A DNA stretch of 40,806 nt, from positions 1 through 40,806 of the forward strand of contig CANHRE010000014.1 in NCBI GenBank assembly GCA_947463095.1, given 5' to 3'. The stretch is from Flavobacteriales bacterium. Lineage in GTDB: Bacteria > Bacteroidota > Bacteroidia > NS11-12g > UBA955. Under the pieces are notes generated by a model, which worked only from the letters and a program-made list of their open reading frames with translations, did not search any database and had not been told where the DNA came from. Numbering within the stretch: the stretch's first letter is position 1; the number at the start of each line of letters is the position of its first letter. A program made the position numbers and the translations under genes. Positions 32,368-40,806 of the stretch are shown here, piece by piece.

Positions 32368-32371
32368 GGAG

Positions 32372-32444
32372 TGGTATCGGACGGAATCGAACCGCCGACA
32401 CAAGGATTTTCAGTCCTTTGCTCTACCGACTGAGCTACGATACC
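32372..32444 (-). tRNA. tRNA-Phe (anticodon GAA)
   Basis: Minus strand GGTATCGTAGCTCAGTCGGTAGAGCAAAGGACTGAAAATCCTTGTGTCGGCGGTTCGATTCCGTCCGATACCA, 73 nt; acceptor GGTATCG/CGATACC, anticodon loop CTGAAAA, T-loop GGTTCGATTCC. Confidence 0.97.
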
Positions 32445-40378: not shown

Positions 40379-40570
40379 TTGACGTTCTTCGCTACATCCA
40401 TGGGGTGGAAACTACAACGCGGTTATGTTACCCATTTACTCGAGCGTGGAAGGAATTTTCGGTATGTTCAGGAATTACTCGGTCAAAACAGCAGTTGCAC
40501 TGCCGCTATCTCTACCCATGCAAGCCAGCACAAGATGCGACAAATACGCAGCCCATTCGACAACCTATGA
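40379..40570 (+). pseudogene. C-terminal remnant of a XerC/D-type tyrosine recombinase/integrase
   Basis: LQRGYVTHLLERGRNFRYVQELLGQNSSCTAAISTHASQHKMRQIRSPFDNL aligns with the family pattern LRHSyATHLLErGtdlRYiQELLGHnSSkTTeIYTHvS...mrkIrSPfDNL; no N-terminal or core domain upstream and catalytic positions substituted. Confidence 0.8.
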
Positions 40571-40589
40571 ACCAACCAAAAAGGGAAAC

Positions 40590-40646
40590 AAAACTAGACC
40601 TATACAACAGAATACGGTGTATAGGGGATAAAAAACTAGACCTATA
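40590..40646. repeat. 15-bp direct repeat pair (aaaactagacctata), copies at 40590-40604 and 40632-40646
   Basis: Two exact copies, period 42 bp, directly downstream of the integrase remnant. Confidence 0.85.
40599..40625. repeat. perfect inverted repeat CCTATACA-N11-TGTATAGG, candidate recombinase core site
   Basis: 8-bp arms at 40599-40606 and 40618-40625 with an 11-nt spacer (acagaatacgg). Confidence 0.75.
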
Positions 40647-40672
40647 AGCAAGTTAGGCAACATGCTAAAAGA

Positions 40673-40759
40673 GCCAACGCACATTCAAGCACATTTGGTT
40701 TTTGCCGACACATAGGCAAACGCTGAAAAACCAAAAGAGCTTGAATTTTGCCAACGCAC
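40673..40759. repeat. nested stem-loop element flanked by 10-bp direct repeats GCCAACGCAC (40673-40682 and 40750-40759)
   Basis: ATTCAAGC(40683-90)/GCTTGAAT(40739-46), symmetric 3-nt internal loop aca/aga, TTTGGTTTTT(40694-703)/AAAAACCAAA(40726-35), GCC(40704-06)/GGC(40715-17), 8-nt bulge aaacgctg. Confidence 0.85.
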
Positions 40760-40806
40760 GACAGAAACAAAGTATTAACATTGACAAAAAGATAAAAGAC
40801 AATAAA

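Follow-up and report, generated by a model that had tools for sequence, protein, structure and literature searches.

The nested hairpin near the end of the window (the whole stretch of DNA that was analysed, 40,806 nucleotides, which is the entire contig of a 123-contig MAG) is a structured element, conserved in Bacteroidota, that borders the gene cassettes of integron-like arrays on their 5' side. In these arrays the GTT core of an attI or attC site is followed by a spacer, the 5' hairpin, often a promoter box, the gene or genes with their stop codon, a 3' hairpin and the next attC, and not all cassettes carry both hairpins. The hairpin is a cassette-boundary element, neither an attC site nor a target-site duplication, and it is, with novelty judged from the open-access literature, a previously unnamed and strongly conserved folded element of such arrays. 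That the hairpins act as boundaries of transcription units is a proposal as to mechanism, put forward tentatively and with rather less than even confidence. The features of the window on which this account is built all lie on the forward (+) strand and are as follows.

40379..40570, +: decayed C-terminus of a tyrosine recombinase, a 63-aa open frame ending ..RYVQELLGQNSS..RSPFDNL (weak TIGR02249 match, 33.5 bits)
40571..40654, +: attI-like 3' flank of the recombinase (from repeats and sister-locus comparison)
40583-40604 and 40625-40646, +: 22-nt direct repeat ..AAACTAGACCTATA within the attI-like flank
40652..40658, +: recombination core GTTAGGC, the end of the common attI-like sequence and the cassette start
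40659..40670, +: cassette start spacer (about 37 nt from GTT to the hairpin core GCACATTT)
40671-40757, +: 5'-type hairpin as matched by model R1 (88.7 bits; 3'-type model R2, 52 bits)
40673-40759, +: nested hairpin with its flanks, parts read directly in the sequence
40673-40682, +: upstream flanking motif GCCAACGCAC (sequence and homologue alignment)
40683-40690, +: outer stem 5' arm ATTCAAGC, variable and covarying, pairing with GCTTGAAT
40691-40693, +: conserved ACA side of the 3x3 internal loop, opposite AGA (homologues)
40694-40703, +: inner stem 5' arm TTTGGTTTTT, pairing with AAAAACCAAA
40704-40725, +: conserved loop with GCCGAC/GCAAACGC-type motifs (homologue alignment)
40726-40735, +: inner stem 3' arm AAAAACCAAA, pairing with TTTGGTTTTT
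40736-40738, +: conserved AGA side of the internal loop (homologues)
40739-40746, +: outer stem 3' arm GCTTGAAT, covarying, pairing with ATTCAAGC
40750-40759, +: downstream flanking motif GCCAACGCAC (sequence and homologue alignment)
40760..40806, +: leader of the first cassette, truncated where the contig stops (very similar to those of loci L067 and L094)

An earlier note on this DNA had described a nested hairpin with GCCAACGCAC flanks at 40673-40759, and every part that it named was found in its place, the contig ending at 40806, 47 nt past the hairpin. A repeat search returned the hairpin as the first inverted repeat (I1) of the last 4.8 kb, with 21-nt arms that are 90% complementary. Both strands fold more stably than dinucleotide shuffles: as single-stranded DNA the top strand reaches -18 kcal/mol against -9.0 +/- 2.2 (z -4.05, with 0 of 200 shuffles as stable), and the opposite strand folded as RNA does better than all shuffles except one (z -3.45). 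Across homologues both stems and the ACA/AGA loop are conserved, whereas the GCC/GGC cap, which the note had included in the architecture, is present in the window but not conserved. The exact identity of the 10-bp flanks is mostly specific to the window copy, the longest common repeat at other loci being usually 4-6 nt, and the flanks proved to be conserved parts of the element rather than the target-site duplications that had been suggested. The sole Rfam or tRNA match in the window is a tRNA-Phe (gaa) at 32371-32444 on the minus strand.

The palindrome is not unique, as it might have been, and belongs to a dispersed family whose different copies adjoin different genes. BLAST of the last 247 nt gave matches in 18 of 58 related genomes, as two separate parts (the flank of the decayed recombinase and the hairpin), while a hairpin-core pattern matched 9 of the 58 relatives (reversed control pattern, 0), at least 115 stretches or loci in the species collection and one viral contig. 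Judged by record titles, the matches come mostly from Bacteroidota orders, with a few from Balneolota, Ignavibacteria and Calditrichota and two from doubtful bins, and in a phylum-wide sample of 396 genomes a covariance model placed the hairpin in 65, representing 50 of 172 genera. Only some cassettes carry it, and BLAST found no hairpin at the other attI-like sites of the genus. No curated Rfam model matches the window hairpin, a search of two arrays at E up to 1 gave only two weak unrelated matches, both away from the hairpins, and nothing relevant to its sequence motifs was found in the open-access literature.

Comparison of the copies indicates a real fold that is maintained by selection. 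Among 109 non-redundant copies, pairing at the five positions outside the conserved GC amounts to 97, 94, 91, 89 and 86%, compared with 72, 50, 44, 52 and 57% for shuffled partners, and it drops at the sixth position. In a 69-sequence alignment of the 5' type, 105 cells have changes on both sides compared with 37 in shuffles, a signal that a one-column slide of the partner abolishes, although such covariation counts are inflated by sequence kinship and the controls remove this inflation only partly. The inner stem appears invariant in the 5'-type set because the search pattern demanded its sequence. The outer stem varies yet stays paired, so that the lack of covariation which would have spoken against a structured element is not what the homologues display, and compensatory base changes are found in the outer stem of the 5' type as well as in the 3' type. 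A protein-coding explanation of the hairpin was considered and is not supported, as loop lengths vary regardless of frame.

Weaker matches of the covariance model are a related hairpin at the opposite end of the cassette. Scanning 1.25 Mb with a motif that leaves the inner-stem sequence free gave 170 elements, and reversed sequence gave 0; inner stems of the 3' type, such as TTTGCAATT, TTGCCAAGT, TTTAAAAAC and TTTACAAAC, each have a matching partner, 12 of 16 pairs are changed on both sides, and the covariation score is 0.413 compared with 0.134 in shuffles. A model built from 3' types only (R2) matches the window hairpin with 52 bits (E 3.5e-12), and the 5' and 3' types are therefore taken as homologous. 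In a first set, 26 of 34 3' hairpins start close to the stop of a gene on their own strand, and in a wider set obtained with the 3' model 66 of 90 begin within 15 nt of a same-strand stop (4.7% at random and 4/90 on the mirrored strand), the two sets overlapping in some genomes and loci and thus not being fully independent. The commonest offset is +2, the last two bases of the stop codon being the first two of the element; some elements of the set of 90 with 3'-type sequence sit just ahead of a start codon. Past the 3' hairpin in L089, L105 and L137, a sequence that by eye resembles the end of a group II intron lies at the place expected for attC.

The genomic setting is an integron-like cassette array, as had been supposed, with an attI-like junction and attC-like sites. 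The decayed recombinase of the window has 53% identity to an intact 371-aa integrase of genome G001. Loci of the genus have in common a recombinase flank with repeated CTAGACCTATA. Most of them match as far as GTT (40652-40654), past which each sister locus carries a different cassette sequence; as far as sequence comparison can tell, a match up to GTT followed by different sequences is the signature of attI-type recombination. This divergence lies about 29 nt upstream of the outer stem, and the junction is thus not at the hairpin. The distance of about 37 nt from GTT to the hairpin core GCACATTT is the modal spacing in other loci, two of which (L203 and L185) display an intact integrase, then an attI-like flank, GTT and the hairpin. 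A search for integrases in genomes sampled in the same manner gave several matches that share a contig with hairpins and lie near them, as in G352, G070, G110 and G157, a co-location noted by inspection. In the host genome itself (G000), at least four further copies of the attI-like flank (on C33, C27, C5 and C111) are each followed by a different sequence, none with a hairpin, and those on C33 and C27 have decayed recombinases.

Sites resembling attC were detected by AACA..GTT ends with complementary inner arms and an allowed span of about 60 to 200 nt, a scheme that replaced a first detector requiring 7-mer complementarity, which was too loose against the reversed control. Folds at or below -9 kcal/mol occur in 45 of 93 regions upstream of hairpins, compared with 5 of 93 reversed and 2 of 80 downstream regions, and at -12 kcal/mol in 36 upstream regions compared with 0 and 0 in the controls. 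The upstream sites are uniform at about 124 nt (121-127 nt in 36/45), and the 5' hairpin follows such a separate site at about 31-240 nt. Within 420 nt after 3' hairpins, attC-like sites were found in 42 of 90 cases, most of them 121-128 nt long, at a loose distance of 24-195 nt. The reversed control gave 5 and the upstream control 13, among which there may be genuine attC sites. A hairpin is missing on one or both sides of some attC or attI sites.

With attC the hairpin shares an imperfect stem with variable complementary arms, conserved unpaired positions, occurrence in integron-type arrays and a more stable bottom strand, but it differs in having a conserved inner sequence and in the base of its stem, where direct GCCAACGC-type motifs stand instead of inverted RYYYAAC/GTTRRRY boxes. 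The identification with attC itself, to whose architecture the earlier note had likened the hairpin, was rejected, since the hairpin has direct flanks and no paired GTT/AAC boxes, these being located in the separate site of about 124 nt upstream.

The recombinases of these arrays resemble IntI (TIGR02249) as tyrosine recombinases beside an array with an attI-like site, but an intact relative scores 206 bits, in two stretches, against a cut-off of 265. The IntI-specific insertion, which has been described as essential to integron function (PMC8138268), is apparently absent, judging from the matches and by eye, from the integrases adjoining arrays in L128, L203, L185, L090 and L218. The array-linked integrase at L165:5389-6504 apparently lacks it as well, and several array-linked integrases have an additional N-terminal segment of about 80-100 residues, devoid of Pfam coverage in the one examined. 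Attachment sites with variable cassettes joined at GTT and attC sites between cassettes are thus present, as in integrons, but the integrases seem to be without the IntI insertion, and the system is therefore called integron-like.

On the gene side, a simple ORF caller places the next gene on the hairpin strand in 103 of 110 loci, the start codon being a median 81 nt away. Of 93 leaders, 47 have the Bacteroidota -7 box TAnnTTTG between hairpin and start codon, compared with 3.5 in shuffles, and the box occurs ahead of the hairpin in 11 of 87 cases, compared with 3.4, these shuffles preserving base composition only. Some 5'-placed copies lie just 9-31 nt ahead of the start codon, with no room for a promoter between. 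Leaders are common to loci with different genes. That of the window closely resembles those of L067 and L094, where the first gene encodes, judged from sequence, a 598-aa HsdM-like methyltransferase, and by this resemblance the gene missing beyond 40806 probably belongs to a type I restriction system; no HsdM relative was found elsewhere in the same MAG. A second, longer leader with its own conserved sequence (GCCGACACTC..GCCGACCC) stands between attC and hairpin in L051, L061, L079, L091, L147 and others, extending as far as about 240 nt ahead of the hairpin core. In L020, L036 and L123 the hairpin is found beyond the 3' end of an inverted gene and not ahead of a cassette gene, the inverted gene being NAD-epimerase-like in L123 and apparently the same in the other two.

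Nineteen cassettes have both a 5' and a 3' hairpin and hold whole operons of 2-11 kb, with one to eight genes that are nearly all co-oriented; the sample was fetched via the hairpin and is not an unbiased census. By Pfam and PADLOC, 12 of the 19 carry anti-phage defence or restriction genes (L127, L152, L083, L101, L131, L153, L105, L132, L107, L089, L093 and L049), including Avs2, Gabija, type IIG or Eco57I-like enzymes, an MvaI/BcnI-type pair, HerA (one with NurA) and two large helicase-nucleases related to PDC-S37, and the others encode metal export, an Hsp70 or enzymes. At L074:409-3047 a hairpin is followed by an inverted 334-aa gene and by a 417-aa protein that by eye resemble a WYL-type regulator and a reverse transcriptase, respectively, a cassette that is possibly retron-like. 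Like known integron cassettes, which are said in a review to carry mostly one ORF (PMC8618304) and some of which have their own promoters (PMC8876359), these units combine exchangeable genes with an attached recombination site, but they differ in having hairpins on both sides of the operon and in their multi-gene size.

Of the readings offered for the flanking repeats, that of a cassette-unit boundary has gained support. The 5' hairpin is placed after the recombination site and ahead of the genes, and the related 3' hairpin is fixed to the stop codon at a widely varying distance from attC, an arrangement to be expected of an element delimiting a transcription unit. In the proposed mechanism, the paired hairpins would mark and insulate the transcription unit of each cassette. 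In the mRNA, the 3' hairpin would take effect from the stop codon on, in transcription termination or 3'-end protection, and the 5' hairpin would halt or process read-through from the upstream cassette, so that each captured operon would be driven by its own promoter wherever it is inserted. Both would be boundary elements at the RNA level, for which a protein or Rho is the probable partner, given that their loops and flanks show conservation and are rich in C and A, and that most hairpins of the 3' type are without the T-run typical of intrinsic terminators. The spacing, which is tight to the gene end and loose to attC, points to gene expression over recombination geometry. On the other hand, a T-run follows the stem in only some copies, the next gene is inverted in a few loci, and some copies leave no room for a promoter. 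The stability of the bottom strand and the array orientation of the hairpin in two loci also oppose a boundary of transcription units, and it is therefore held with less than even confidence, while a role in recombination is considered unlikely.

This role would be that of an accessory structure, in which single-stranded hairpins of the bottom strand bracket attC and aid extrusion, strand choice or integrase docking. attC works on the bottom strand, and the hairpin has the same strand preference, its bottom strand folding more stably in 190 of 196 copies, by means of 1.7 and 3.4 kcal/mol compared with about 0.85 in shuffles, although base composition accounts for part of this bias. On the bottom strand, non-standard stem pairs frequently prove to be G.T or G.A. 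A symmetric scan of the top strand gave C.A 30 times and G.T 13 times, which together with the stability would suit a DNA structure of the bottom strand, but this wobble bias was not reproduced in a second, CM-derived set (17 compared with 17). The gaps between a 3' hairpin and the next 5' hairpin measure 217-466 nt in 7 of 9 cases, that in L215 containing an attC, and in L074 and L123 the hairpin keeps the orientation of attC and the array although the next gene is inverted. The loose spacing to attC, compared with the tight spacing to stop codons, and the attC or attI sites without a hairpin on one or both sides argue against it.

It is distinctly unlikely that the hairpins are relics of capture, that is, the ends of an operon-packaging unit comparable to IS200/IS605-type single-strand transposons, to which attC was added. 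IS200/IS605 and REP hairpins are imperfect palindromes with conserved foot sequences, as are the present ones, and can act as single strands. Homologous hairpins that flank unrelated operons in direct orientation, the very exact join to the stop codon and the leaders common to loci with different genes would be in keeping with such ends. However, the hairpins differ from those families in being placed at gene ends within cassettes bounded by attC, no unit flanked by hairpins but devoid of attC or attI could be established, and the element borders show no target duplication.

Ordinary intrinsic terminators are a still less probable explanation. The 3' type does sit at the stop codon, as a terminator or 3' UTR hairpin would, and the 5' type has a T-run of 5-7 after the stem in 58 of 116 copies. 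Against this, the 3' T-runs are mostly of 1-2 (32/53), the window copy has only TTT outside an AT-rich, interrupted stem where a GC-rich stem and a T-run would be expected, and the long loop and the flanks are conserved in sequence far beyond need; that the hairpin is no conventional terminator had been recognized from the outset. A MITE-like insertion with target-site duplications, suggested by the dispersed repeat and the identical 10-mers of the window, is scarcely credible, because the flanks elsewhere are rarely identical and the element is placed in a markedly non-random way with respect to attC and stop codon.

Integrons have rarely been reported from Bacteroidota, and IntegronFinder 2.0 listed just one that is complete in Bacteroidetes proper, that of Salinibacter ruber (PMC9024848). 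The covariance model of the hairpin allows arrays of the present kind to be found without reliance on the integrase. In the widest reading, which remains doubtful, a new class of boundary element would define the cassettes of a widespread Bacteroidota integron-like system whose integrases are without the IntI insertion, and the 5' hairpins together with the stop-codon-fused 3' hairpins would be the signals through which operons, including whole defence systems, are packaged or kept as autonomous mobile cassettes. Phylum-wide cassettes with paired hairpins locked to gene ends and with operon-sized defence content provide concrete sequences for testing how cassettes arise and how they are expressed far from the integron promoter.
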